Below, piece after piece: positions 3,796 to 37,824 of a DNA stretch of 37,824 bases. Under the pieces are notes generated by a model that searched no databases, was not told where the DNA came from, and saw only the letters and a program-made list of their open reading frames with translations. Made by a program: the position numbers and the translations under genes. This stretch comes from a virus: positions 1 to 37,824 of IMG/VR virus record IMGVR_UViG_3300044591_001189; one strand, given 5' to 3'. The first letter of the stretch is position 1; every line of letters starts with the position of its first letter.

Positions 3796-6700
3796 TTAAC
3801 CTCTTCTTGCTATACGGCGCTTTTCGGAATCGATCATCGCCTTGATTGAGTTATTATCGGCTTTTAGCTCGCCGCTTATTGATACATGCGTATTACGGTT
3901 GATTTGCCTGCCAAGCCCGCGCGTCTCTTCGCGTAGCTTTCTCACCTCTTGAATAAGGTCACCATCTTGAGTAACTGCATAGCGAACTTGAGGCGCTTGG
4001 CTAACATAGTAGTCTCGTATGCTCATGCCGGGATTCGCGTTCATCCATGCGAGCTCTTCGCGGTTTGCCTTTGTGCTTGCTGCGGTTATCACCGATTCGC
4101 CTCGTGATAGCCATGCCGGTATCGAGTCGCTTGTTTCGGTTCCTGGACCTTCGAGAGATACGACCCCGTCTTTGAATCCCAGCGCGGCCTTTGCTTGACC
4201 GAGCAAGAGCTGAAGCGAAGCGGTCGCAAGCCCTGCGGCAATCGGTCCGAATACCGGACCGAGCGCGGTGATGGAGCTTCCTAATATACCGGCTACGAAT
4301 GAAGGTATCATAGCTTGAACGGTATCAAATGCGACGCCTGCGGCTGCGTTCCCGAAGTCTCCGAGGGTCGCTTTACCGCTTTCGGCAAGCGCGGCAAATT
4401 GACCTGTTAGCGAAGTCATGGACTCGCCGATTATCTTACCTGTTTCACTGACATTGCCTTCAGCATCTTTGAACTGGTCGGTAACAAAACCTGTGATTGC
4501 GGCGCTTTGACTTCTTAAAAGTGATGCGACCGTCTTATCTTGCACTTCTTTTAAGCGATCTGTAAAAGTTATCTCGGTCGCTTCCATCGCGTCTTGCCTT
4601 GCTTTGTCAATATCTGCCATTTTAGCCGCGTAATCTTCGAATGATATTTCACGCTTCGCAAGGCTTGTCGTGAGGTCTTTCTCTTCGGCATCAAGCGCGC
4701 CGAGGCGCTCGGCTCTTATGGCTTCATTCGCTTCGCGTTCTTTTGCGATGCGCTCGGAGTTGAAGGCATCTAAGATATTAGTTTGCAAAGCCGTTGTAAG
4801 TTGAAAAGTTAGCGTGCTTTCTTCTTCAGCTTTTGCGATTGCCTTTGAGCTATCCGTTTGATAAGTTGCAAGCCTCGAAGTGAGGGTATTTATGCTCAAT
4901 ACATTTCGTTGTATTTGCGCGTCGAAGCTCTCAGCTGCTTCGATATTACCACTTGCGAGGGCTTCAGCTTTTGCGGCTTCGATTTCCGCGTTCTGAGATT
5001 TGATGAAGTCAAGATATTGGCTAATTTTAGCCGTATTCTCATCGAGTGCATCTTGTGAAGTTGCAAGCGCTTTGGGTATAAGAGCCTCGGTGTTCTTTTC
5101 GATATCCTTTACGGCAGTTTCAAATCCTTTTAGTTCTTCTTTGAAGTCGGGAAGTTTGAAGCTTGTCTTGATTTTTACCTCGAACTTATCCGCATCGGCT
5201 AACAACTTGCGAACATTCAAAAGAGCTTCATCTTTATCTTCACCTTTGCCAAGTTTTACGCCAAGTTGTAAGTTACCTTCGGCATCTCGAGTGGCTTTGA
5301 ATGCTCTCGTAATTGTATCGGCTACGGATGAAGCCGTAGGCGCGGCGTTCGGATCTTGTGCTAATTTAAGTTGAATCTCTTCTTTATTAAGGCCTTCGGC
5401 TTCAAATTTCTTTATCTGCTCTTTGCGGTAAATCTCAACGCCGTCGATATAGGATTTATACAATTTAAGAGCGTTCTTATATTCTGATTCTGGCGGTGTG
5501 CCTGCAGCACCTTTCTTAGCGGCCGCCGTCTTAGCGGCCGCGCTTGCCTTTGCATCCGCATTTGCTTGCTCTTTTGCTGCTTTCTCGGCTGATTCCTTAA
5601 CCTGCTGAGCCGCCGCATCGGTATTGGCTTGCTTTACTTTATCATTGAATCCTTTATTATACCCAGCTGCGACCTTTTCGCCGAATCCCGTAAAAGCATC
5701 AAGGGCTTTTTTAAGGTCAAAGCTACTTATCGCGGTGAAAAACTCACCGATTACGCCTTTAATAACCTTAAACGCCTCAGTTACGCCTCCGATAGTGCCT
5801 CGGATATTGCTAAAAGCCGTGCGAAGCGTATCAATAAAGCTCGTAGCACCTGAAGCAGCCGTTCCCGTGCCTTTAATGGATTCCGTGTTTTCATCATTTG
5901 TGGACATCCACCCCGCAATCGCGGATACGATGTTTGCAATCACTTGTATAGATGTCTGAATCGGTGTGATAAGGAACTCGACAAGCAATCCACCGAAGTC
6001 GGCTACTATTTTGCCGATTTCAGTAATTATCTCAGTTGCAGTTCCGAGCGCATCTTTGAACACTTGGATAATATCAATGCCTTGCTCCATATCACCACCT
6101 GAGCCGAATAAGCCTTTTACGGCATCGACAAGAGGTGCAAAGGCGGCTACGATAGCATCAAATACTGAATTAAAGATTTCACCTACGACAGTTACCGTAC
6201 TTATGGCTATATTAAATGCGGGCACGATAGTACCGATAACGATACCACCGATAGCGGCAAGGATAGGCTTAACTACTGAGAATATATTCTCGAACACGGC
6301 TGAGAACGCCTCGCCAAATTGGTCAAATACAGGCCCGAGCGTATCGGTAAATATAGGAATCACAATCGAAGCTATCGAGTTAATCGCTCCAATAATCACC
6401 GCGCTTCCCTTTTCAAAAGCAAGTGATAAGTTACGACCAACGGCATCGAATGAAAGATACTGACCTACGGCATTTTGAGCGGCTTGCCCTGCTTCAGTTG
6501 CTTTCTTTGTAATTTCATCGGTTGGTATTGGAGCGCCGAATAATTTATTATACGCTTGTACTCCAATATCTTCGGCGGGCGTTCCGGCTACGGCTACTTG
6601 TAATTGAGATGCCATAGATTCGGAGATTTGTCCTGAATCAAATGCGGTCTTAATCGATTCGCCTGACTTGGCTAAGAATTCTTTAATCGTAATTTGCCCG

Positions 6701-7677
6701 CTCGATGCGAGCTGCTCTAAATTGCCAAGCGTATCACCAAGCGCTTTTGGTAGTTGGTCTTTAATATCCGTAAAAGCCTTTGCCGTATCGCCTGCTTTAA
6801 GCCTGATTTGCGCTTCTTTGATTGAGTCAGCAATCTTATCGGTATTGAATAACCCCTCTTGACCAGCCACCACCAAAGCGCCTGTAAACTCTTCGGCGCT
6901 GAAGCCCGCCTCGTCAAGTAATTGAGAGTATTCTGCGAGCGTATCAAGTACATCGTCCTGCGAAGTTTTGCCCTCTTTTGCAGCCAAAGCGATAAGGTTA
7001 AACGCTTGATCTCCATCAAGTCCAAACTGCTTGATAAACGGCGTTGACTTTGCAATGACTTCGTTAACATCTTTGTCGTACAAATTACCAAGCGCTTGAG
7101 CGCGTGCGGTAAATTCTCCGATTTGCTCGGTAGGGAGCGCGTCTTTGAGCACTACTTTTGCATTGCTTATGATCTTAGTCGCTTCGGCTACTGATTCACC
7201 TACGCCACCAAGAAACGCCTCGTCTGCTTCTTTCTTGAGAGCCTCGAATTCCGCGCCCGTCGCGCCCGTCTGAGCTTGCAAATCGCCTTGCGCCGATATC
7301 AAACCCCTTCCCGCATCTACGACCGAGCCAAAGCCATCCACGATAGCCCCTACCCCCGCTTGAACCCCTGCGGCTAAACCACCTCCGACAAGCCCTCCGA
7401 TTAAACCACCTGAGAACGCATCGGTTAGGCCCGCTTGCAATCCGCCGAGGATACCACCCGCACCCTCAGCGGCTTCGCCGACCCCATCAAGTGAAGCCGC
7501 GAGCTTGTCGGCATCAGCCGCCGCGCCTGCAAAGTTGGTATCACCTACCTTGTCGAGCGCTTGCTCGGATTGCTTTGACTCGCCTTGTAATTGGTTAAGT
7601 TCGCTCGTGACTTTATTAAGCCCTGCGAATAACTCGGCGGCATCAAGCCCTAACTTAATTTTGATATCATCGGCCAT
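3796..7677 (-). CDS. Tail tape measure protein, 1293 aa
   Basis: This is the longest gene of the genome and sits directly after the frameshifted tail chaperones, the canonical tape-measure position. It opens with an alpha-helical segment rich in Leu, Gln and Ala, then has Gly/Ala-rich hydrophobic stretches (about residues 75-120 and 425-530) and long Lys/Glu/Ala coiled-coil regions in the second half, where EKAAKEQANADAKASAAA is typical. It ends with a basic tail. Such proteins set tail length, pass through the tube and often help DNA cross the inner membrane. With roughly 1.5 angstrom per residue, a tail near 190 nm is expected (inference). Its start overlaps the end of the chaperone extension. 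Confidence 0.93.
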   Translation of the reverse strand: MADDIKIKLGLDAAELFAGLNKVTSELNQLQGESKQSEQALDKVGDTNFAGAAADADKLAASLDGVGEAAEGAGGILGGLQAGLTDAFSGGLIGGLVGGGLAAGVQAGVGAIVDGFGSVVDAGRGLISAQGDLQAQTGATGAEFEALKKEADEAFLGGVGESVAEATKIISNAKVVLKDALPTEQIGEFTARAQALGNLYDKDVNEVIAKSTPFIKQFGLDGDQAFNLIALAAKEGKTSQDDVLDTLAEYSQLLDEAGFSAEEFTGALVVAGQEGLFNTDKIADSIKEAQIRLKAGDTAKAFTDIKDQLPKALGDTLGNLEQLASSGQITIKEFLAKSGESIKTAFDSGQISESMASQLQVAVAGTPAEDIGVQAYNKLFGAPIPTDEITKKATEAGQAAQNAVGQYLSFDAVGRNLSLAFEKGSAVIIGAINSIASIVIPIFTDTLGPVFDQFGEAFSAVFENIFSVVKPILAAIGGIVIGTIVPAFNIAISTVTVVGEIFNSVFDAIVAAFAPLVDAVKGLFGSGGDMEQGIDIIQVFKDALGTATEIITEIGKIVADFGGLLVEFLITPIQTSIQVIANIVSAIAGWMSTNDENTESIKGTGTAASGATSFIDTLRTAFSNIRGTIGGVTEAFKVIKGVIGEFFTAISSFDLKKALDAFTGFGEKVAAGYNKGFNDKVKQANTDAAAQQVKESAEKAAKEQANADAKASAAAKTAAAKKGAAGTPPESEYKNALKLYKSYIDGVEIYRKEQIKKFEAEGLNKEEIQLKLAQDPNAAPTASSVADTITRAFKATRDAEGNLQLGVKLGKGEDKDEALLNVRKLLADADKFEVKIKTSFKLPDFKEELKGFETAVKDIEKNTEALIPKALATSQDALDENTAKISQYLDFIKSQNAEIEAAKAEALASGNIEAAESFDAQIQRNVLSINTLTSRLATYQTDSSKAIAKAEEESTLTFQLTTALQTNILDAFNSERIAKEREANEAIRAERLGALDAEEKDLTTSLAKREISFEDYAAKMADIDKARQDAMEATEITFTDRLKEVQDKTVASLLRSQSAAITGFVTDQFKDAEGNVSETGKIIGESMTSLTGQFAALAESGKATLGDFGNAAAGVAFDTVQAMIPSFVAGILGSSITALGPVFGPIAAGLATASLQLLLGQAKAALGFKDGVVSLEGPGTETSDSIPAWLSRGESVITAASTKANREELAWMNANPGMSIRDYYVSQAPQVRYAVTQDGDLIQEVRKLREETRGLGRQINRNTHVSISGELKADNNSIKAMIDSEKRRIARRG

Positions 7678-11507: not shown

Positions 11508-12704
11508 TTAGGTAGTTGATGTTTTGAGAACGCCGATCGCGCTTGGAGCAGGGAAGGCAAAAGCTACGCGCTCAACAACTTCGATACCTTTTTGATGAGT
11601 ACCGCCCAAACCAGTAGCACCGAAGTACTCTTTGTATTCATTTACGGTGACATCTTCACGAATACCCATCACTGTGAATTGTGCAAAGTCGCAATACACT
11701 GCGGATGCCTTATTTGCGGCTGAAGATGGGAAGAGTGAATCAGGTACGACATGCATAGGACGGCCTGTCGGTGTGAAGTAGCTATTCCCTTGAAGTGCAG
11801 TCATGCCGATGGAAGGCACATCAAGTGGTCTGATTTGATCGAATACAGGGCGTGAGCCAGCTGTTTCTTTCATCAAGAATCCGAAGATACTTTGAGGTAC
11901 TACGAATACGCCATTCGCAGCGACGCCTGAGTTAATACCAAGGCGCAAGTTCCACAGATCAGTCCATGAGATTTCACCGAATGTATCTTTTCCTGAAGAG
12001 TCGGACCCACCTTGGCGAACTACTGTAGTTCCGGACGCGTTCAAAAGTCCTGTGAAGTTAGGAGCTTGACCGTCTCCATTAAAGAACTGCTTATCTTCGG
12101 TCTCTGCAAGCGCGCGGCCTAAACCGTTCACTACATAATCCAAGAAAGCAGGGGTCGCGTCTTGTAATTGCTCTTCGGAGATGATAGCACCGGCTACGAG
12201 CTTGCGCGCTGTCATCGCTGTTGCTGTGAAGAAGTTCGCGGAATCGGTAACTGTGAGGCCTGAACCTTCAGCTACGACTGCACCTGTAAAAGCGCCGCTT
12301 GATACGAGGTTCTCAGTTTTGCCACGCATAGGGTAAATCTTCGCCAAAGCACGAGCATAACCGAACTGATCGGCAAAGCTCATGATCTCTTCAACCCAAA
12401 ACTGAGGAACGGCCGCGCCGCCTTGCGCTGAAGTACCTGTATTAAAATTAGCGCGTGTGATGTACTTGTTATTTGCAGTGCGGGCAATCTCATCGGCCGC
12501 GCCTTCGAGGCCTTTGTGCTTTGCCAAGATGTAGTCAGCAACTACGCGAGCTTGATCGCGGCGTGCATCATGATCGGCTTTGATAGATACCAAACCTTTT
12601 GCAGGTGATGGTGTGTTTACTGGGTGCAATGTACGCAACTGATCTGCGACTTTGCGGTCTACAACTTCTTTAAGTTGGTCTTTTGTTACGATAATGTTTT
12701 CCAT
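11508..12704 (-). CDS. Major capsid protein, HK97 fold, 398 aa
   Basis: The N-terminal region (about 1-100) is a charged helical delta-like segment (ENIIVTKDQLKEVVDRKVAD). The core then shows features of the HK97 family: the VAEGSGLTVTDSANFFTATA strand/loop, the TARKLVAGAIISEEQL stretch before the spine helix, QFFNGDGQAPNFTGLL, and a C-terminal region with a TVMGIREDVTVNEYKE strand. It follows the protease-scaffold gene as usual. The delta-like segment is probably removed by the upstream protease during prohead maturation. Multiple copies form the icosahedral shell. The gene starts 13 bases after the protease stop, with AAGGA upstream. Confidence 0.93.
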   Translation of the reverse strand: MENIIVTKDQLKEVVDRKVADQLRTLHPVNTPSPAKGLVSIKADHDARRDQARVVADYILAKHKGLEGAADEIARTANNKYITRANFNTGTSAQGGAAVPQFWVEEIMSFADQFGYARALAKIYPMRGKTENLVSSGAFTGAVVAEGSGLTVTDSANFFTATAMTARKLVAGAIISEEQLQDATPAFLDYVVNGLGRALAETEDKQFFNGDGQAPNFTGLLNASGTTVVRQGGSDSSGKDTFGEISWTDLWNLRLGINSGVAANGVFVVPQSIFGFLMKETAGSRPVFDQIRPLDVPSIGMTALQGNSYFTPTGRPMHVVPDSLFPSSAANKASAVYCDFAQFTVMGIREDVTVNEYKEYFGATGLGGTHQKGIEVVERVAFAFPAPSAIGVLKTSTT

Positions 12705-13732: not shown

Positions 13733-15766
13733 TTACTCTTCAACTGGGAATAATTGGCATCTGCAGTTAATGGCATTCGAGGCGCTTAAACCGCGACCAA
13801 GCGGGCGGTCTGCAGTCTCAATTACGGTGATAGGATTGCCGTCTGCATCCTTTGCTTCAGTCTCTACCGTAAATAGCCCTTTACCATCTTGATACGAGCC
13901 GTCAAGTCTTGCATGTGAAGGTCTTACACGGCTATCGCGCTGCGTAAGCCACATCATCTTGAAACCAAGGTCTTTATAGACCGTATGCTGCATCGCGCTT
14001 GTAACATTCGCTGCGGTCGTATTCGCAATCGTGCGGGCTCGTGATGTTTTAAGCGTATCAAACTGTTTGGTAAGTATATCCAAAAGCTCATCTTTTGTCT
14101 TGCTTGAGTTCGCTATGAGCGTCTTTTGCACATCCTCTTTAATCACTCCGATAGACTCGCGTATCTTATCTGCACTCTCTGTCGTGATTGCTTGTATCTC
14201 TTGCCCAACCGCTCCGCTCAAATCTTCCGTTCCGAGTGAGAATTGAGTAAGTAGCTCTTGCTTGACTGTTTCGCACGCCTCAAAGATTGCCTCTTCAAAG
14301 TCCACAAGCTCATCAAGTGATACCGTAACATCGCTCATGCTAATTGCACCGCTTTCGATTTGCTCAAATACTTGATCCTGAATAGTCTCAATCATTTGCT
14401 CTACTATCGGAGTGATATTATTACTCGCGATTGTTGTAAGCCCGTCGTAGTTACGCCAAAACAAGTCCTTGCTATCGGCTGTTATGAGAGGCAATTTCGC
14501 GCGGTTCTGTATTCCGTGTGCCCTTTCGAGTTTTCGGGGCATCATGGGCACGGGGGCGGGGTTTGCGACCGATTGAAGCGGAGCGTATCCACCTGCAATG
14601 AGTGGTATATTGCCATCTTTAATCGGATCGTAACCACGCGCGGCGCGCGCTTCATTGATTGTCTTGAGTCCCCATTTAAGCTCGAACTCTTCTTTACGCA
14701 TATCAGCATCGGGGTCAGCGTATTCGTATGGCTGCGCTTCAATTAAGATATCCTCTTCCCATCTACGGAAGTGTCTTGTGAATTCTTCAGCGATGTAAAG
14801 CGCTTCGGGGTCGATTGTGTTCTGCCTAAAGATTGCAAACTGAACCTCTGCAGTCGCACGGTTTTGGAAAGAGCCGTCGAGCATACCGGGAGGCACGCCA
14901 AAGACTTGTGCGATTTGAGCGCGTGTATCTTTGCTTACCGCTTCATAGCTAATTGATAGCTCGCCTTTTGGCGGTAATTGCAATTGCATACCGTTCCCAA
15001 GCAAAGCTCGGAGCTTATAGTCTGGGAGTTCTTCATTCCATTGTGCTTTGAGCTTGTACCAATCATCAGGATTCATTAGACTTGGATAGGTAGCTACGAG
15101 CGGTGGCACGGTATTATTCTCGAATAACCTTGCAAGATACGCGCTAACTTCGCGGTCAATAAAGGCATATTCAAGCGCTGCTGATACCAAGCCGACACCG
15201 AAGATATTCATACCGATTATCTCTTCAGGTCTTGCGCCCGGGTGAATTTTTGCAAGGTGAATAACCTCTTTCTCTGGTATCGCGATATTCCCCTCTTGAG
15301 CGGACTGATAGACATACCCTTCGATGAAGTTGTTATCGCCTTTGATAACTCGCATGCGGGTCGGATTAAGCACCCACATTTGAAGAGGCACTCGGTAGCC
15401 ATTTGTCGGAGTCCAGATATACGCATTTCCATTGATGCTTAGCCAATTTTCAATATAGCTGAACACTTGCGAGCGGGTAAAATACGGATTAGGATTATTC
15501 AAGAGCTCATTTGCCCAGTGACCTCGGCCTAGCTCTTCGCGCTTCCAATTCTTCTCGGCATAGCTATCGAACTTCACACCGGTCAAAGCGTTCGCACGAT
15601 GCTGCAAGCAAGCGAAGACCGTGCCTCGAAGCGAGGCCGCGAGTTCATTGCCGACTTGAGTCGCGCCGATATTACGGCTACCACCACTGCGGATATATGG
15701 CCTATCGTTTTTGCGCGGTGCAACAGCGGCCGCGATTCTATCTCGAAGTTGGTCAAGTAAACTCAT
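13733..15766 (-). CDS. Portal protein fused to a MuF-like minor head domain, 677 aa
   Basis: Residues 1-400 are an HK97-type portal: RGTVFACLQHRANALTGVKF, SYIENWLSINGNAYIW, PEEIIGMNIFGVGLVSAALEY, and VFGVPPGMLDGSFQNRA before the helical end. The C-terminal part (about 540-677) has the MuF/SPP1 gp7-like pattern: RARTIANTTAANVTSAMQHT, then MMWLTQRDSRVRPSHARLDG, and finally SNAINCRCQLFPVEE. Both domains are in one continuous frame. The start shares an ATGA with the terminase stop. The portal ring is the DNA gate; the MuF part is usually a minor head protein, here covalently attached. Confidence 0.92.
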   Translation of the reverse strand: MSLLDQLRDRIAAAVAPRKNDRPYIRSGGSRNIGATQVGNELAASLRGTVFACLQHRANALTGVKFDSYAEKNWKREELGRGHWANELLNNPNPYFTRSQVFSYIENWLSINGNAYIWTPTNGYRVPLQMWVLNPTRMRVIKGDNNFIEGYVYQSAQEGNIAIPEKEVIHLAKIHPGARPEEIIGMNIFGVGLVSAALEYAFIDREVSAYLARLFENNTVPPLVATYPSLMNPDDWYKLKAQWNEELPDYKLRALLGNGMQLQLPPKGELSISYEAVSKDTRAQIAQVFGVPPGMLDGSFQNRATAEVQFAIFRQNTIDPEALYIAEEFTRHFRRWEEDILIEAQPYEYADPDADMRKEEFELKWGLKTINEARAARGYDPIKDGNIPLIAGGYAPLQSVANPAPVPMMPRKLERAHGIQNRAKLPLITADSKDLFWRNYDGLTTIASNNITPIVEQMIETIQDQVFEQIESGAISMSDVTVSLDELVDFEEAIFEACETVKQELLTQFSLGTEDLSGAVGQEIQAITTESADKIRESIGVIKEDVQKTLIANSSKTKDELLDILTKQFDTLKTSRARTIANTTAANVTSAMQHTVYKDLGFKMMWLTQRDSRVRPSHARLDGSYQDGKGLFTVETEAKDADGNPITVIETADRPLGRGLSASNAINCRCQLFPVEE

Positions 15767-16932
15767 ACTAATATCTGCGGTGTTTTGCGAATAGCATTGA
15801 AGGCATAGCCCAATGCGTCAATAAAGTCATCATGCTTGTCTTGAGGAGTTCCGGTAAAGCTCAAGAGCTCCTCAGTGAATTCAGGGTCTAAGTGAGGAAC
15901 ATGATATACAAGCCCTTGCTCGTATCGTGCCTCAACGGGCTGGAATCGAATCACCTTATCGCGATCCGCTCGCACGCCGACTACATTCATTTTAGTATTT
16001 CGTTTCAGTTCTTGCACCATCCACGCTTGCGCTTGGTTTGATTCAACGGCTACGACGCGTGCTTGCCATCTCTCTTCGGCTGCCATGATGCGAGCTCCAA
16101 TCTCGGCAAATTGTGCTCTAAAGTGCTGGGCTTCAACTACCACTACTTCGCCGTCTTGAGTCGTTCCTATCACTACGATCGCAGTATAGTCAGCGGTCTC
16201 TTTTTGTGATATTGCCAAATCCACTCCGATATAGTAAGCCGTGCATACTTTATCATTTGCAATGCGTAGCCAATCGCGTTTAATCTTAGCTGAACTTCTA
16301 TCGACATATTCGGCTAGGAACTCTTGAGCGAATACGATGCTCGGTAAAAGCTCCTTTTGCCTATCCACTTCGCTCTCTTTGATTTGTCCACCATCGTATG
16401 TGGAAAAGTGGAAAGACTTCCAATCTTCGAGCGTATCGTGAAGCTGATCCAATTGCCAAAAGTGATTCTTACCTTTCGGCGTTGAGAAGAAATACGCATC
16501 GCCTTCATAGTCTGCGAGCATCGGAGATAGTACAAAGTTCCAATCGTCTTCAGCGTTTGGGCAATGCGCCCATTCATCACATATAATGCGGTGGAACTTG
16601 TTACCTCGAAGCCCGTCGGCTCGCCATATTCCTTGAAGATTCAATGTACTATTACCTAGTTTAATCTGTCCTTGCTTGTAAGTAGCACCAAGGGGCGCAA
16701 AGAAGTTTTGCGCTTCGGTTTCTCGGCCTGTGAGTTCTGTATATGACGGCGCTGTGTAGAGAACATACGCGCCATCCACTTCCAACATCTTCTCAAGGGC
16801 AAGAGCAAAAGCCAGATAAGACTTCCCAAAGCGACGCCCGCACCTAACAACATTAAAGCGCTTCCGATCGCGAAGTATTTCAAGCTGTTTCTCATGCGGG
16901 TAAATCTTGACTACTTTGTCCAATTTTAGCAC
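15763..16932 (-). CDS. terL: Terminase large subunit, 389 aa
   Basis: The ATPase domain shows a Walker A-like RCGRRFGKS (30-38), Walker B RIICDEWAH (115-123) and coupling motif FFSTPKGK (148-155). The nuclease domain has the first acidic residue D238 in YYIGVDLAISQKE, another in VVAVESNQAQAW, and the last in KHDDFIDALGYA near the C-terminus. All key residues expected for packaging motor and headful or site cleavage are visible. The start is GTG at 16932; the N-terminus overlaps the small terminase candidate by 41 bases, and the end shares ATGA with the portal. The length is on the short side for the family but complete. Confidence 0.95.
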   Translation of the reverse strand: MLKLDKVVKIYPHEKQLEILRDRKRFNVVRCGRRFGKSYLAFALALEKMLEVDGAYVLYTAPSYTELTGRETEAQNFFAPLGATYKQGQIKLGNSTLNLQGIWRADGLRGNKFHRIICDEWAHCPNAEDDWNFVLSPMLADYEGDAYFFSTPKGKNHFWQLDQLHDTLEDWKSFHFSTYDGGQIKESEVDRQKELLPSIVFAQEFLAEYVDRSSAKIKRDWLRIANDKVCTAYYIGVDLAISQKETADYTAIVVIGTTQDGEVVVVEAQHFRAQFAEIGARIMAAEERWQARVVAVESNQAQAWMVQELKRNTKMNVVGVRADRDKVIRFQPVEARYEQGLVYHVPHLDPEFTEELLSFTGTPQDKHDDFIDALGYAFNAIRKTPQILV

Positions 16933-22503: not shown

Positions 22504-23136
22504 TTAAATAGATACTAAAATAGTGCGAAGCCTCTCATTATATTGCTTCACATCTTTGACCTCATACTTTGCCGTATTCAGCCCGCTAATCTCTGGACGC
22601 GATGCCAGCTCCTTCAATTTACGCAAGTTATCCGCTTGCCATTCGGCATAGTTTGTCCTATCGTGGTCATCACTCCAGAACTTGCCGAAACGGCGCTTAA
22701 ATCCAATCTTGATAACTCGTAGGTATAAATCGTCATCATCTGCAGACCAACCAAGATACTCATTAGAGTAGCCGTTTATCTTTCGATAGCTCGCTTTGTC
22801 AAACAGAGTCACACCGCCAAAGAAAGTCGGATAGGGAAGCTCGTACCCAAACTGCTCAACTGCATAAGCCAAGTGCGTAGGCATATCCGTATAGGAATAA
22901 TCTACATCCTCAGCGTACATATCGACATCGTGAAAGCAGTAATAGTCTGCATATTGAGACTCTAAGAATCCGATGTTCTTCATCAAACCGGTATTAAATA
23001 GCTTGCCCTCCTCTTGCTCTACGACCGTGATACCAAAGTCAAGCCCTTGGTCAGTTAGCACCTTCCACAAGTGAGGCACTTGCTTCGATAGGTGCTCTTT
23101 GCGGTTCCGATAGGGAATGATTACCTCTAATCTCAT
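22504..23136 (-). CDS. Beta-1,4-galactosyltransferase-like glycosyltransferase (GT7 type), 210 aa
   Basis: The sequence begins VIIPYRNRKEHL, has QEEGKLFNTGLMKNIGF (41-57), the DVD metal site in FHDVDMYAED (68-77), FFGGVTLFDKASYRKINGYS and then the acceptor/catalytic GWSADDDDLYLRV (129-141). These blocks match the beta4-galactosyltransferase/GT7 fold, which uses UDP-sugars and Mn2+. It is in the same operon as a SAM methyltransferase and the lysis genes, so it is probably expressed mid-late. Acceptors could be phage virion proteins, modified DNA bases or the cell surface; the sequence does not tell. Confidence 0.88.
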   Translation of the reverse strand: MRLEVIIPYRNRKEHLSKQVPHLWKVLTDQGLDFGITVVEQEEGKLFNTGLMKNIGFLESQYADYYCFHDVDMYAEDVDYSYTDMPTHLAYAVEQFGYELPYPTFFGGVTLFDKASYRKINGYSNEYLGWSADDDDLYLRVIKIGFKRRFGKFWSDDHDRTNYAEWQADNLRKLKELASRPEISGLNTAKYEVKDVKQYNERLRTILVSI

Positions 23137-27013: not shown

Positions 27014-27231
<218 letters not shown>

Positions 27232-29457
27232 TTATTGCGAAAAATCGCCATAAGGGGCAAATTGCTTGCGAACCTTGACACGGTAAACAGTGCGAGGGAA
27301 TGAGTTGAATTTCTTCTTTTTGCGTTCGAACCCTGCTTTATTGAGTGCAATCCCGAGTCGATTCTCGGCAAATTTAACTTCAAGATGCTTTAGGATGGTA
27401 TCGCGAACCTCGGTCGCGGTCATCCAAGTGCCTTCGGTTCCGCTTGGAAGTTCGAATACGATATCGAGTGCTTCGGCTGCGGTATCGACTTGTTCATTAT
27501 CTTGCGTTGACATTGAAAGCTGAGCGATCTCGCCTTTATTGAGTTGCCAAGAGCTATCGCCTTCGGTTTTCCAGATGTGATAAGCTTCCATGAGCAAATC
27601 GATCTTATCTACCTCGCGATACGCCCCGAAGTCAATGCTAACTAAGTTAATTGGAATAATACGGCGGTTCCCAGTCGGGTCGTTAATCACTTCATTCTCA
27701 TTTGAGGTACCGCAGAGCACGGCATAGCGTCTGTAGTCTTCAAATTTGCGCCCGTAGGGCTGTCTGAGGTTAAAGAATTGCGTTGAGGCGTATTGCTTGA
27801 GTAGTTTGTACTCGTTTTTAGATTTGCCGGAGAACTCATCATCGCATAGTATAAGTTTTCTGCACATTAGGATTTCATCATCTTTGCCTCGGTCGAGTTT
27901 GGACTCGCCGTAATAGTCTCGAAGCTCTGAAGGTAGTAGCCATCTAAAGAAGTTTGTTTTGCCGAGGCCTTGTTCACCGCACATAACTAGAATAAGAAGT
28001 GAGTAAGTGCCGTGCATGGAAGCGATGAGGCTAATAATCCACTTTCGAATGAAGATACGGGTAATCATGGGGCCGAAGTCGACTATTTCGCCGTTATCAT
28101 TTACGATATGGCGTGCGGTTACGGTTGCGATGAGTTGGTCAATGGTTCCATGCTTCACCTCGCGGTCTTGATAGCGTTCAAAGAAGTCAAGGAACGGGTT
28201 ATAGGTGCGAGTGTTATCGTTATGAATGAGCGAATCGACATGCGATTGTGTGCATTTCGTACCGAGCGCTGTTGCAATTTCGGACCAGATGGTATTGAGA
28301 TTGCTTGTAGTCATCGGCTTGCCTTTGTACTCGATTTCTTGAGTTACTTCATTCTTTTTGATATCGTAGGCTTCGAGTGCGGCTTTGATGAGAGGGATAA
28401 CATTTTCTTCGCGGTTTGCTTTGTAGTTTTCTTTAGGGTTTTTAAGAACTTGCTCAACTATTTCGCGTGTAAATTCACTTGATATGCCTTCTTGTTCTGC
28501 TAGCTTAACAATGCTTTCTGTTATGTCTTTATCGGTACCTTTGTTAACTGATCGCCGAGCATAAGTCATTCCTGTTACTTTTCGAGTCTCTTCGGTTTGG
28601 AACTGAATACCGTGCTCTTTACACTTAAAGAATAGCGTCGCGATACCTACGCTACCGTCGTTTGTTTTCAAGAAGTTATCATACTTTGCATCGGTATTTT
28701 GCGCGTTGTATTCGGGATGCATCTCACTTATAGCGTGGAAGTAATCGCGGCCCGCTTCGCCGTAATGATCAGCCAAAGCGAAGCCGATTTGAATCCAATC
28801 GTGATACGATTCAGTAAGATCTATGCGACGGCTCCGGATCTGGCTAATAATAAACTCCATATCTTTTGAAGTATGCGCATGGATTACTCTTGTACTGATT
28901 TGCGCCTCTTTTTTGAGGTACTTTTTGAATACGGGTGTATCTTTCGGGTTCTTATGTAAAAATGGGTCGAATGATACAAAGCGGAGGCGCGTCACATCTT
29001 TACATGCTTTATCGGCTATGAGTTCATAGGTATCGGCAAGATACTTTTCAAGCGCGAGGTATGCTTCGAGGTGTTTTGCGGGTTCGATCCTGAAGTAGAT
29101 CGCATATCCGAGGCCTCCGAGTGATTGGTGGAAGGCATAGACAAAGGGATCGCTCATAAGGCCTCGAACTTTGTCATTAAGGCTATCGTTATCCTTATCA
29201 TCTACATCAATGCAGATTAGCCCGCTGTGGTTCTTTAGGCCGGCTTGCCCGCGCCCTGTGAACTCACCGCTTGGAGTTACTGCGGTGATCTTCCGCTTTG
29301 CGGCTTTGCGCTCTTCGGGGTCTTGAATAGCTCTGTAGGTTATCACCTCATCTTGCCAGTGGCCATTTTTGATAAGGTATAGGTACTCGTTAAATTCTAT
29401 AAGCTCTTGCGGGCGCGTGGCCTCTGCATTTGCGAATAGTGTGATTACATTACTCAT
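27232..29457 (-). CDS. Primase-helicase: VirE_N/PriCT-2/VapE-type, 741 aa
   Basis: The N-terminal domain (about 50-190) is the BT4734-like/VirE_N primase domain, with the acidic metal site in LICIDVDDKDND and the FHQSLGGLGYAIYFRI and DVTRLRFVSFDPFL blocks. A PriCT-2 domain follows (about 210-290, ESYHDWIQIGFALADHYG). The C-terminal half is a VapE/virulence-associated E helicase: P-loop GEQGLGKT at 494-501, LILCDDEFSG (Walker B region) and YAVLCGTSNENEVINDPTGN. It should prime and unwind phage DNA. The candidate origin lies directly behind it. The start overlaps the DnaA-like gene's stop. Confidence 0.93.
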   Translation of the reverse strand: MSNVITLFANAEATRPQELIEFNEYLYLIKNGHWQDEVITYRAIQDPEERKAAKRKITAVTPSGEFTGRGQAGLKNHSGLICIDVDDKDNDSLNDKVRGLMSDPFVYAFHQSLGGLGYAIYFRIEPAKHLEAYLALEKYLADTYELIADKACKDVTRLRFVSFDPFLHKNPKDTPVFKKYLKKEAQISTRVIHAHTSKDMEFIISQIRSRRIDLTESYHDWIQIGFALADHYGEAGRDYFHAISEMHPEYNAQNTDAKYDNFLKTNDGSVGIATLFFKCKEHGIQFQTEETRKVTGMTYARRSVNKGTDKDITESIVKLAEQEGISSEFTREIVEQVLKNPKENYKANREENVIPLIKAALEAYDIKKNEVTQEIEYKGKPMTTSNLNTIWSEIATALGTKCTQSHVDSLIHNDNTRTYNPFLDFFERYQDREVKHGTIDQLIATVTARHIVNDNGEIVDFGPMITRIFIRKWIISLIASMHGTYSLLILVMCGEQGLGKTNFFRWLLPSELRDYYGESKLDRGKDDEILMCRKLILCDDEFSGKSKNEYKLLKQYASTQFFNLRQPYGRKFEDYRRYAVLCGTSNENEVINDPTGNRRIIPINLVSIDFGAYREVDKIDLLMEAYHIWKTEGDSSWQLNKGEIAQLSMSTQDNEQVDTAAEALDIVFELPSGTEGTWMTATEVRDTILKHLEVKFAENRLGIALNKAGFERKKKKFNSFPRTVYRVKVRKQFAPYGDFSQ

Positions 29458-35661: not shown

Positions 35662-35860
35662 CGATATACTCCTGATACGGGTCTCTTAAATTGCGAATCT
35701 TAACAAGCTCGCGTTTGTGTATTGTCATTCTTGCTATGCTTACCATCTCTTTCTCAAAGCGATCATAAGCCCACTCTCTGACATCCTCTTCGGATAGCGA
35801 GTAGTCTAGGAGCACATCGTCCTCGTCGAATGCGCCCCAGACTTCGAAGGGGTGACTCAT
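35654..35860 (-). CDS. Acidic hypothetical protein, 68 aa
   Basis: The start at 35860 shares ATGA with the Sak4-like gene. The product is acidic (MSHPFEVWGAFDEDDVLLDY) with a helix EEDVREWAYDRFEKEMVSIA and ends DPYQEYIDE. No membrane segment is present. Its stop overlaps the TAVEWL gene start, and CAGGAG lies in its last codons. Function unknown. Confidence 0.75.
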   Translation of the reverse strand: MSHPFEVWGAFDEDDVLLDYSLSEEDVREWAYDRFEKEMVSIARMTIHKRELVKIRNLRDPYQEYIDE

Positions 35861-36750
35861 TTCACCACCTCCTCAAACTTACCACTTTCTTTATTCCATT
35901 GCAAGCCGCGCTCTCCAAAGGTAGTCACTACGGAAGCCCAAACGGCGCGCTTTAAAGCATCCTCAAGCCCTGCTTTGCTGAGATCGGCTACAAACTTATT
36001 AGCATCCTTTACGGCTTTTGCCTTTTCAGTCCACTCGGATACGAGTGCAATGGCTTCTTCTTGCTCTTTGGAGCGCTTTGCAATCGCGGTCTTAGTGTGA
36101 TTGATAATATCGCTTAATTGCGTAGTCATCTCGTGAAGGCTACCGATATACACGGGTGCAATCTCAGCGCAATTTTTAGCGGTTACGGTATCGGATAGGT
36201 CAAAGGTAAGCACGCGCTTGTTTGCAATCGTAGTATAATATCCGACAAGGTCGCATGATTGCATAAGTAGGTCGTAACTTGATCCTGGAATGAGAGGGCG
36301 CTTGATGCGAACATCGCCTTCCTCTTTCTCTTTTGCATGTGCAATGAAGATCACATTCTTACCGCTTAATTTGAGAGGCAAGAAAAACTCTTGGAATAAA
36401 CGCTTAGTTTCGCCCCATAATTTGATACCATTGCGAAGTAGTGCGGGGTTCGACTTTACGAGGTATGCTTGCATGGCTTCAATTACCGTACCGGCAGTAT
36501 CGATAATTATGCTATCGTGTTGAGCTATGAGCTTGTCAAGGTCAAGTTTGCTATCGATCACATCTTGCCATGAGTCAAACTGCAGGGCGTTCTTGCGATG
36601 CGAAGCGCGGTGCACTCCACGATCGAAGTCAAGAAGCAGTGGATTCGGCGCGGTGAATGATAGGGTAGTTTTCCCGATTCCCGGATCGCCGTAGAATAAG
36701 ACATTGAGTCCTAAGACATTCATGTCATCTGTTGTTTGGATTAATCTCAT
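35857..36750 (-). CDS. Sak4-like RecA-family ATPase (recombination mediator), 297 aa
   Basis: Walker A is GDPGIGKT (21-28), followed by PLLLDFDRGVHRA (37-49), Walker B-like SIIIDTAGTV (80-89), and KNVIFIAHAKEKEEGDVRIK with the RIKRPLIPGSS segment. This is the phage Sak4/AAA_24 (RecA-like) pattern. The start at 36750 has TAGGAG six bases upstream; the ATG at 36756 lies immediately after it, so it is less suitable. The C-terminal 90 residues are helical and charged. Such proteins bind ssDNA and promote strand annealing or loading with SSB; here the DUF3127 protein may be the partner. Confidence 0.88.
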   Translation of the reverse strand: MRLIQTTDDMNVLGLNVLFYGDPGIGKTTLSFTAPNPLLLDFDRGVHRASHRKNALQFDSWQDVIDSKLDLDKLIAQHDSIIIDTAGTVIEAMQAYLVKSNPALLRNGIKLWGETKRLFQEFFLPLKLSGKNVIFIAHAKEKEEGDVRIKRPLIPGSSYDLLMQSCDLVGYYTTIANKRVLTFDLSDTVTAKNCAEIAPVYIGSLHEMTTQLSDIINHTKTAIAKRSKEQEEAIALVSEWTEKAKAVKDANKFVADLSKAGLEDALKRAVWASVVTTFGERGLQWNKESGKFEEVVK

Positions 36751-36958
36751 CTCCATCTCCTAAGAGCTTTTTAAGCTCGCTATAATTTAGTAAATACATA
36801 GACTTTTGCCCGTATGCTATTTCTTTTATTTTGCGAAGTACGGGCGGCTTCGCGTTTCTTTCATCTGTTTCAGGTCTTCCGCGTGCTAGGTAGTGAAGGT
36901 ATCGCATTGAGAGTCCGAAGATTTCCGCGGCTTCTCGGATAGTTAGCCATTCTCTCAT
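36725..36958 (-). CDS. Small HTH protein (MerR/excisionase-like fold), 77 aa
   Basis: The N-terminus MREWLTIREAAEIFGLSMRY is the HTH_17/excisionase-type helix-turn-helix, followed by a wing-like LARGRPETDERNAKPPVLRK and a basic end. It is the third gene of the early operon. Without an integrase in the genome, a role as transcription regulator is more likely than excisionase. It overlaps both neighbours. Confidence 0.78.
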   Translation of the reverse strand: MREWLTIREAAEIFGLSMRYLHYLARGRPETDERNAKPPVLRKIKEIAYGQKSMYLLNYSELKKLLGDGDEINPNNR

Positions 36959-37056
36959 CGAATAACCTCGCCGAGAGTGTATATCTCAAATTGAGTAATA
37001 AGCCATAATGCGAAGATCATGAATACCACGCCGTGCCATAGTTTGCCATTCTTCAT
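36955..37056 (-). CDS. Small membrane protein, 33 aa
   Basis: The ORF is supported by GGAGG eight bases before its ATG, by an ATGA overlap with the upstream gene, and by another with the HTH gene. The product begins MKNGKLWHGVVFMIFALWLI and is a single hydrophobic helix ending in charged residues. It is probably an inner-membrane peptide, expressed early. Function unknown. Confidence 0.65.
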   Translation of the reverse strand: MKNGKLWHGVVFMIFALWLITQFEIYTLGEVIR

Positions 37057-37226
37057 ATCTTGCCTCCGATATAGGTGATAATAGTTCCGACTGCTATGCC
37101 GAAGTTCACAAGTGCGAAGTTCTTTGCAACTACGATGAACTTATCACGATATGTGACCACTTCGAAGCCTTCGGGCGCGTTCTTTTGCGCCTCTTCTTTG
37201 GTTTTGTAGAGTCTGTAGAGTTTCAT
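37053..37226 (-). CDS. First gene of the early operon, small protein, 57 aa
   Basis: It starts MKLYRLYKTKEEAQKNAPEG, then has FEVVTYRDKFIVVAKNFALV and a hydrophobic C-terminus (VNFGIAVGTIITYIGG) that may be a membrane helix. It is the first ORF after the early promoter (leader about 32 bases, CGGAG before the ATG). Its last codons supply GGAGG for the next gene. Early small proteins of phages often act against host functions, but there is no evidence for a target here. Confidence 0.72.
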   Translation of the reverse strand: MKLYRLYKTKEEAQKNAPEGFEVVTYRDKFIVVAKNFALVNFGIAVGTIITYIGGKI

Positions 37227-37264
37227 GCCGTACTCCGTTTGTTTGTGTGTTGTTGATTACGGTG

Positions 37265-37296
37265 CGAACTTACGAACAAAACAAAAGGAATGCAAA
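37265..37296 (-). promoter_or_regulatory. Early leftward promoter (Bacteroidota type)
   Basis: On the minus strand TTTG, a 20-base spacer and TAAGTTCG match TTTG-N20-TAnnTTTG at nine of ten fixed positions. Transcription should start near 37258, 32 bases before the first early gene. All early genes to the primase-helicase overlap, so this may be the only promoter of a 10-kb operon. Confidence 0.82.
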
Positions 37297-37307
37297 CTTT
37301 TTTTTAT

Positions 37308-37496
37308 TTATCGTGAAATTTTTATTTTTTCGGGTAGGTGCAAGCTCTGTAAGTGCTTGTATTCTCGTGGAGTTATAGCAAATAAAATAATTTCATGCAC
37401 GGCGGTAAGTTCCGCGAGTGATATCACTTCTGATAGTGATTGCACGGCGCATCCATAAGCGGAGCCGCTCTTTTTGATTATTTTTATTTGATACAT
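37308..37496 (-). CDS. Small protein of the control region, possibly leaderless, 62 aa
   Basis: The preferred start is the ATG at 37496 (MYQIKIIKKSGSAYGCAVQS); an upstream ATG at 37544 is less likely. TATCTTTG lies just before it on the minus strand, so an mRNA would begin at or near the ATG. The protein has hydrophobic parts (HEIILFAIT) and a basic end, and no known motif. It lies between the divergent rightward promoter and the early promoter. Its position recalls a phage regulator, but this is inference. Confidence 0.5.
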   Translation of the reverse strand: MYQIKIIKKSGSAYGCAVQSLSEVISLAELTAVHEIILFAITPREYKHLQSLHLPEKIKISR

Positions 37497-37518
37497 TCGA
37501 CAAAGATAGGTATTTTTG
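37487..37518 (+). promoter_or_regulatory. Perfect rightward Bacteroidota-type promoter
   Basis: TTTG at 37487-37490, a 20-base spacer, and TATTTTTG at 37511-37518 match all ten fixed positions of the consensus. It is the best promoter in the window and the only one found on the plus strand. A start near 37525 is expected. A perfect inverted repeat (TGCAATC, eight bases, GATTGCA at 37522-37543) overlaps that start and may be an operator. Confidence 0.75.
37501..37508 (-). promoter_or_regulatory. Leftward TATCTTTG element before the 62-aa gene
   Basis: TATCTTTG fits TAnnTTTG fully, but the nearest TTG is only 15 bases upstream instead of 19-21, so the promoter is incomplete. It lies inside the rightward promoter, so only one may be used at a time. 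Confidence 0.35.
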
Positions 37519-37524
37519 CGATGC

Positions 37525-37597
37525 AATCTTAATTGCGATTGCACAAGTACAATATGGCTGCATGGGGTATGGCGATCTCGGGGAGGTCGCCTTTTTT
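37525..37597 (+). ncRNA. Candidate small RNA of about 73 nt
   Basis: A perfect rightward promoter and a strong rightward terminator enclose about 73 bases on a strand with no protein gene. The RNA would contain the second arm of the TGCAATC/GATTGCA repeat and end in the GC stem with six U. An ORF of 31 codons starting at 37553 reads through the terminator and is not convincing. The sequence shows no known RNA family that I can name. It may be antisense or a regulator; it is not proven to be transcribed. Confidence 0.5.
37571..37597 (+). terminator. Rightward rho-independent terminator of the control region
   Basis: GGCGATCTC, loop GGG and GAGGTCGCC form a 9-bp stem (one G-T pair) followed by six T. 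In the minus direction no T tract follows, so it serves plus-strand transcription. Confidence 0.88.
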
Positions 37598-37673
37598 ATT
37601 TGCATTGAATAGAGAGTTTTACTATATTGCACTCAGCGGCCTATCATAGCCGCAGTTCGCCCCCCCCGGAATG

Positions 37674-37700
37674 ACCCGCTTATCTAATAAGCGGGTTTTT
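37674..37700 (+). terminator. Second rightward terminator at the circle junction
   Basis: ACCCGCTTA, loop TCTAA and TAAGCGGGT form a perfect 9-bp stem, followed by TTTTC. It overlaps the stop codon of the minus-strand 68-aa gene and would keep rightward transcripts from entering the late genes. On the minus strand no T tract follows. Confidence 0.8.
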
Positions 37701-37824
37701 CTTTGCATACTCTTCGCGTAAGCATTTAATAAAGAACTGAAGGCTTGCTACTTTACCTTGAAGCATTATCGCTTCATCTGCGAGCCGTACGGCTTCACCT
37801 ACGGCCTTTGTGATGGGGAGCCGT
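37680..37824 (-). CDS. 3' part of the junction-crossing 68-aa gene (right copy)
   Basis: The last 18 bases of this gene, including its TAA at 37682-37680, lie here; the rest is the repeated copy of bases 1-127. The start codon is at 189 on the left end. It should be counted once, together with the left entry. Confidence 0.65.
   Translation of the reverse strand, partial: RLPITKAVGEAVRLADEAIMLQGKVASLQFFIKCLREEYAKKNPLIR
37698..37824. repeat. Terminal direct repeat, right copy
   Basis: Identical to bases 1-127. One copy should be removed when the genome is closed. Confidence 0.95.

Follow-up and report, generated by a model that had tools for sequence, protein, structure and literature searches.

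What is encoded at positions 37487-37700 of this phage genome, where promoter and terminator sequences face right and all of the assigned genes face left? The window, by which we mean the whole stretch of 37,824 nucleotides that was analysed, is a complete circular phage genome whose last 127 bases (37698-37824) repeat positions 1-127, so that the locus is internal on the circular map; the late genes are separated from the first annotated early gene by an internal region at 37227-37670 (Table 1). An earlier note, made from the letters of this DNA, had placed all genes on the minus strand, which fits the genes assigned here, helicase genes included, and had read the locus as a lone rightward transcription unit with a perfect promoter, an operator-like repeat and two terminators, encoding one short regulatory RNA that would control early or late expression. 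Comparison with related phages strongly supports small-RNA genes at the locus, as a pair and not as the single gene proposed: the earlier reading overlooked a second promoter, P2, and a second RNA, RNA2, to which the second terminator belongs, as well as a conserved minus-strand frame of 62 aa (ORF62) and the end repeat. We consider it highly probable, from conserved sequence and structure, that 37487-37700 holds two real RNA genes.

The phage primase is closest to primases of Flavobacteriia phages (31-38% identity), and this likeness, together with the promoter type, suggests a host in the Bacteroidota. A group-7 (galactosyltransferase-type) glycosyltransferase is also encoded in the genome, at 22504-23136 on the minus strand (Pfam PF02709/PF13733).

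Table 1. Positions of the locus features and of the assigned genes in the window
Feature	Position	Strand	Description
RNA1	37523-37597	plus	predicted 75-nt small RNA, from +1 to U-run of T1
RNA1 5' hairpin	37523-37542	plus	GCAATC-N8-GATTGC
Promoter P1	37487-37518	plus	TTTG (37487-37490)-N20-TATTTTTG (37511-37518), Bacteroidota sigma-A type
Terminator T1	37571-37597	plus	9 pairs (37571-37591), then six T; GGGG at loop
Promoter P2	37599-37630	plus	TTTG (37599-37602)-N20-TATATTGC (37623-37630)
RNA2	37635-37700	plus	predicted 66-nt small RNA: HP1, C-tract, terminator
RNA2 HP1	37636-37653	plus	stem GCGGC/GCCGC, loop CUAUCAUA
Weak stem-loop displaying RNA2 C-tract	~37655-37672	plus	
RNA2 C-tract	37660-37667	plus	C8
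Terminator T2 (of RNA2)	37673-37700	plus	11 pairs (37673-37697), then U-run
ORF62	37496->37308	minus	conserved 62-aa protein MYQIKIIKKSGSAYGC...KISR, divergent neighbour of RNA1; ITPREY/F motif
Probable early promoter	37265-37296	minus	TTTG-N20-TAAGTTCG; TAAGTTTG in L004
First annotated early gene	37053-37226	minus	
Last late gene	ATG at 189, through joint, stop 37680-37682	minus	68 aa; part inside 127-bp repeat
Sak4	35857-36756	minus	
Primase	27232-29457	minus	
Terminase	15763-16932	minus	
Portal	13733-15766	minus	
Major head protein	11508-12704	minus	
Tape measure	3796-7677	minus	

Promoters and terminators of the two units

P1 agrees with the flavobacterial promoter consensus, a -33 TTTG with a -7 TANNTTTG (PMC6847099), and is the only exact match to TTTG-N18-21-TANNTTTG in the window. 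The rightward promoter described before is thus exact, but a shuffled window would yield about 0.84 such matches, and the P1 match alone therefore proves little; it is conserved in its context in the related loci L003 and L012. The -7 box of P2 has the form TAnnTTGY, which is the -7 box motif SM5 of flavobacteria (PMC9723704), and in some other lineages it reads TAnnTTTG. The -33 TTTG is exact for both promoters in the window, and that of P2 is missing in several relatives. With the +1 set 5 nt downstream of the -7 box, the flavobacterial distance (PMC9723704), most lineages carry a TAnnTTTG or TAnnTTGY-like -7 box 12 nt upstream of the predicted +1, variants being TATATTGG in L067/L082 and TATATTCT in L043.

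The strong terminator seen before near the predicted start of the P1 transcript, T1, is borne out, and T1 and T2 are the two best terminators within the last 7.8 kb of the window. T2 includes the stop codon of the last late gene, which lies on the opposite strand.

On the other side of the locus, ORF62 is conserved in more than 20 loci and gave no Pfam match. Its start codon lies inside P1, 4 nt after a leftward TATCTTTG box, a spacing with which the ORF62 mRNA may be leaderless. Within ORF62, at 37416-37445, there is an operator-like palindrome, GAGTGATATCACTT followed by AGTGATTGCAC, which is not kept in L003. Further leftward promoters were seen in a different clade: L038 has four near-identical copies of TTTGCATATTGGTTAAAAATnnCTTATATTTG, ~310-710 bases apart and up to 2.6 kb upstream of Sak4, and L035, L036, L047 and L049 have two copies of a similar promoter.

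RNA2 combines a covarying hairpin with an exposed C-run

A protein search with Sak4 returned 47 related loci, and RNA2 was found by sequence in 28 of them and, by model and by eye, in L043; most of the other loci were short contigs that stop short of the region or belonged to a different clade (L035-L039, L047, L049). Related phages from at least eight lineages have RNA2, some of them with a terminase only 63-67% identical. Across these lineages RNA2 would be ~60-80 nt long and consist of a conserved 5' hairpin, a C-rich run that is exposed, and a terminator hairpin. The 26 distinct sequences have in common a -7 box, a GCGGC-CNAUCAUA-GCCGC type of hairpin, a run of 5-8 C and a terminator; the near-invariant CNAUCAUA is the HP1 loop in most lineages, and the C-tract is C5-6 preceded by U in most relatives. 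Against the RNA2 R1 model, of which it is itself a part, the window scores 55.5 bits.

In an alignment of 16 sequences, part of the RNA2 set having been retrieved by a pattern that constrains the HP1 stem, all 80 of 80 pair cells of this stem were standard, both sides had changed in three of the five pairs, and none of 500 shuffles reached the observed paired fraction or covariation score. L003, L004, L005, L043, L044 and L045 were brought in by the protein search and not by the stem pattern, and variants among them include GCGUC/GAUGC and GCUUC/GAAGC (L004, L005) and GCGGU/ACCGC (L003, L044, L045). The C-run tends to occupy the loop of a small stem whose sequence changes; its flanks pair modestly better than permuted ones (a mean at least as high as that observed in 173 of 5000 permutations). 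Folding of RNA2 gave z values of -3.0 to -4.75.

RNA1 is constrained within a clade and divergent between lineages

The inverted repeat TGCAATC-N8-GATTGCA, reported before at 37522-37543, is present and does lie at the predicted start, where it forms the 5' hairpin of the predicted RNA1. Its reading as an operator is disfavoured: we read it as a hairpin of the transcript because, in other lineages, hairpins unrelated to it in sequence usually start at or beside the same predicted +1. In most lineages the predicted +1 is on or adjoins the first paired base. Between the window, L003 and L004 this hairpin covaries at two of its six pairs (GTAACC/GGTTAC in L003, GCAACC/GGTTGC in L004).

RNA1 folds moderately better than its shuffles (z from -2.2 to -3.7, depending on the bases included), and the single-sequence evidence for a small RNA here would, by itself, be no more than suggestive. 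Within the clade L006-L033 RNA1 has a mean identity of 96.9%; in the nearby Sak4 gene third codon positions are 75% identical and fourfold sites 70%, a difference that indicates strong constraint on the RNA1 sequence. The sequence changes faster between lineages, not within them. RNA1 would be ~75-90 nt long in the different lineages, with the 5' hairpin at about +1, in many of them a core with UACUUAUGG or UAUGCUGC, and a terminator that usually has GGGG in or just before its loop; 11 of 12 lineages have a GGGG in RNA1, against about six expected from shuffles. The ATG frame that the window has in RNA1 is not kept in L003, L004 or L008.

Three features of a small-RNA gene, a host-type promoter, a terminator within ~100 nt without a conserved open reading frame, and compensatory changes, were found at the locus. 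It might still be supposed that only the two terminators matter, keeping spurious antisense transcription out of the converging late genes, and that the promoters are chance matches, since promoter matches this good do arise by chance and terminators are common near gene ends. We regard this as extremely improbable, as it explains neither that RNA1 is 97% identical over its whole body nor that HP1 covaries, and accounts for neither the near-invariant C-run nor the CNAUCAUA loop.

The two units recur together in varying arrangements

Loci of the same architecture found through the Sak4 protein, and not through the RNA, were L003, L004, L005, L043-L045, the record of L046 and the L006-L034 clade. 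The common plan is ORF62 on the minus strand, in the nearer relatives of the window, followed by the two rightward units, with the order sometimes modified. RNA2 is the more widely recognisable unit and RNA1 recurs beside it. A protein gene stands between RNA1 and RNA2 in L070 and L080, and in L043 the order is swapped, with RNA2 first and RNA1 after it, which indicates that each is a unit of its own and that the two tend to occur together.

These rearrangements bear on whether the RNAs act in cis. Both oppose all of the assigned genes from the gap that separates the late operon's end from the early promoter, and no terminator facing left was called in that gap. Any late-to-early read-through would run opposite to them, and RNA2 overlaps the 3' end of the last late gene at T2, which takes in the stop of that gene. 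An antisense pair that silences or terminates leftward late-gene read-through into ORF62 and the early genes, in the manner of lambda OOP, would suit this position. We nevertheless think it unlikely, given that the RNA structures are kept despite the intervening gene in L070 and L080 and the swapped order in L043, and that conservation tracks RNA structure while the sequence changes, which an antisense RNA does not need.

The region is also large and intergenic, with several hairpins and a strand-asymmetric C-run, and Sak4, primase and helicase genes are on the same map, as might be expected if the hairpins and the C6/G6 run acted as DNA, in a replication origin or a packaging signal. Such a DNA-level role seems very improbable: each set of hairpins has a -7 box at the right distance and a T-run after it in constant orientation, the cumulative GC skew does not turn clearly at the locus, the 127-bp end repeat has a length that looks like an assembly k-mer overlap, and the contigs of relatives end at varied distances from the locus. 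The end repeat of G045 has the same length, 127 bp.

Sixteen records of the phage group have terminases 63-99% identical to that of the window. G023 (TerL 78% identical) retains two short rightward units, whose terminator loops carry GGGA in unit one and UUCUUCC in unit two; this second unit is not recognised by the RNA2 model, and HP1 is unrecognisable in the 78%-TerL group. The model gave no hits in the near-complete relatives G037, G038 and G045 (TerL ~61% identical to that of L124), and the intergenic gaps inspected in G038 and G045 had no two-unit arrangement. The locus is therefore not universal in the phage group, and RNA2, being unrecognisable or absent in these relatives, is not essential everywhere.

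Searches outside the phage group

The whole window matched no Rfam 15 family at the gathering threshold. With relaxed settings the only sub-threshold match was to anti-hemB (RF02837), a Burkholderia small-RNA family, for which RNA2 scored 17.5 bits, far under the gathering value of 49.5 (E 0.11). A search for tRNA and tmRNA found none. The absence of an Rfam match at the cut-off counts against a reading in which RNA pairing plays no part and the RNAs are decoys that titrate a host or phage protein, such as an RNA-binding regulator or a defence nuclease. A protein-binding motif could be made up of the near-invariant CNAUCAUA loop and the C-run, whose places in the small structured RNA are fixed; we judge the decoy a quite improbable reading.

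By DNA, the phage collection gave no match to the region except two 26-base hits in Serratia phages, which were rejected as chance. The RNA2 core pattern had ten hits in scattered phyla among 84,980 prokaryote genomes, none of them convincing and all judged by eye to be chance; the best, L088 (31 bits), had a coding-looking context without promoter or terminator. Thirteen new loci that a looser pattern, ATCATRACCG..TYCCCCCC, drew from viral contigs were likewise set aside as chance. RNA2 was sought in the nearest cultured phages by primase (P12024S, phi46:1 and mymlan6-1) and not found; none of the cultured phages examined carries it, the phages that do being known from metagenomes only.

Possible pairing of RNA2 with RNA1 and with other RNA

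The two genes are predicted to be transcribed rightward from host-type Bacteroidota promoters, against all of the assigned protein genes, and both RNAs would be ended by intrinsic terminators. The RNAs are most likely base-pairing regulators. RNA2 probably acts by base-pairing in trans, its C-run pairing with G-rich stretches that would probably belong to host RNA, and RNA1 is perhaps its partner or sponge, as the RNA1 GGGG could pair with the same C-run.

A target search among the phage's own mRNAs, as proposed before, gave no enrichment of G-runs complementary to RNA2 (GGGGG 10 times in mRNA sense, 15 expected), and host RNA is therefore the likelier target if RNA2 pairs with mRNA in trans. 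The earlier proposal of control over early or late phage expression drew no support from the analysis. At ~27150-27223 on the minus strand, between genes by the primase, there is a GGGGGG site with a GTGTGTGT dinucleotide run, and this GGGGGG is a possible pairing site of RNA2. Bacteroidota mRNAs are without Shine-Dalgarno sequences and the ribosomes retain the anti-Shine-Dalgarno (PMC6847099), so that the G-rich RNA1 and the C-rich RNA2 could act on a little-used ribosomal site.

A GGGG that is exposed and able to pair with the RNA2 C-run, mostly in the terminator loop, was found in the window, L003, L004, L008, L043 and L073. L067 has a different exposed RNA1-RNA2 match of 7 bases; for L064, L070 and L080 the scoring gave no exposed GGGG-CCCC match, the GGGG being paired in the predicted fold with the U-tail or otherwise. 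The GGGG/CCCC match covers few bases, and GGGG runs are common enough to arise by chance. On visual comparison the potential pairing lengthens to CUUCCCC/GGGGAAG (L044/L064) and CUCCCC/GGGGAG (L003); this resembles covariation of RNA1 with RNA2, in few cases and in lineages that are not independent. That pairing of the two RNAs is their function can be put forward only tentatively, because the numbers are small and the lineages not independent. We are more doubtful of a dedicated pair, in which the RNA2 C-run and the G-loop of the RNA1 terminator would form a kissing complex, as a regulator with its own sponge.

Discussion

Taken as a whole, the best explanation of the locus, and the one to which we lean on balance, is a pair of phage small-RNA genes in which RNA2 pairs in trans and RNA1 is its partner or sponge. 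Lambda OOP, a phage RNA of ~75 nt, has a promoter and a terminator to itself, lies opposite the main operon and is antisense to cII. RNA1 and RNA2 are similarly short, have their own promoters and terminators and run against the main operon. OOP is a single RNA, transcribed from pO and linked to the control of cI/cII expression (PMC12197685), whereas here there are two RNAs, with conserved structures of their own and shifting gene neighbours.

In its hairpin-displayed C-run RNA2 is like anti-hemB and the cuckoo small RNAs of Proteobacteria. The cuckoo family alpha-r14 consists of small trans-acting RNAs with hairpins that display C-rich anti-Shine-Dalgarno runs (PMC10746234); alpha-r14 has CCUCCUCCC in three hairpins, and RNA2 has one C-run, CUCCCCCC, UUCCCCCC or similar. 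Both known groups are bacterial and from a different phylum, whereas RNA1 and RNA2 are phage-borne. RNA2 may resemble the anti-hemB class in manner and is not a member of it.

Among phage RNAs, which are ~50-125 nt long in these cases, PreS of lambda and VpdS of VP882 pair with host mRNA, and SprY, from an S. aureus prophage, is a sponge that pairs with the stem-loop of another RNA (PMC12197685). PreS and VpdS require Hfq, and no sequence relation of PreS, VpdS or SprY to RNA1 or RNA2 was shown. None of the phage small-RNA cases compared (PMC12197685) pairs a G-loop with a C-loop at a single phage locus. The Rfp RNAs of F. psychrophilum (PMC9723704) are small RNAs of the relevant phylum with the same promoter motifs; these are bacterial and chromosomal, unlike RNA1 and RNA2.

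The family described here has no Rfam entry and very likely represents real phage small-RNA genes, to judge from the comparative evidence. Small-RNA regulation in the Bacteroidota, where translation is initiated without Shine-Dalgarno pairing, is little known, and we know of no described structured RNA family like this one in their phages. Conservation in many related phages suggests an RNA-based control system that has not been described before, and the kissing pair, if true, would be a previously undescribed module of regulator plus sponge in a phage. The two RNAs are precisely bounded and their ends are predicted; together with the conserved seed-like run and a covariance model, this makes direct tests of transcription, pairing and targets feasible.
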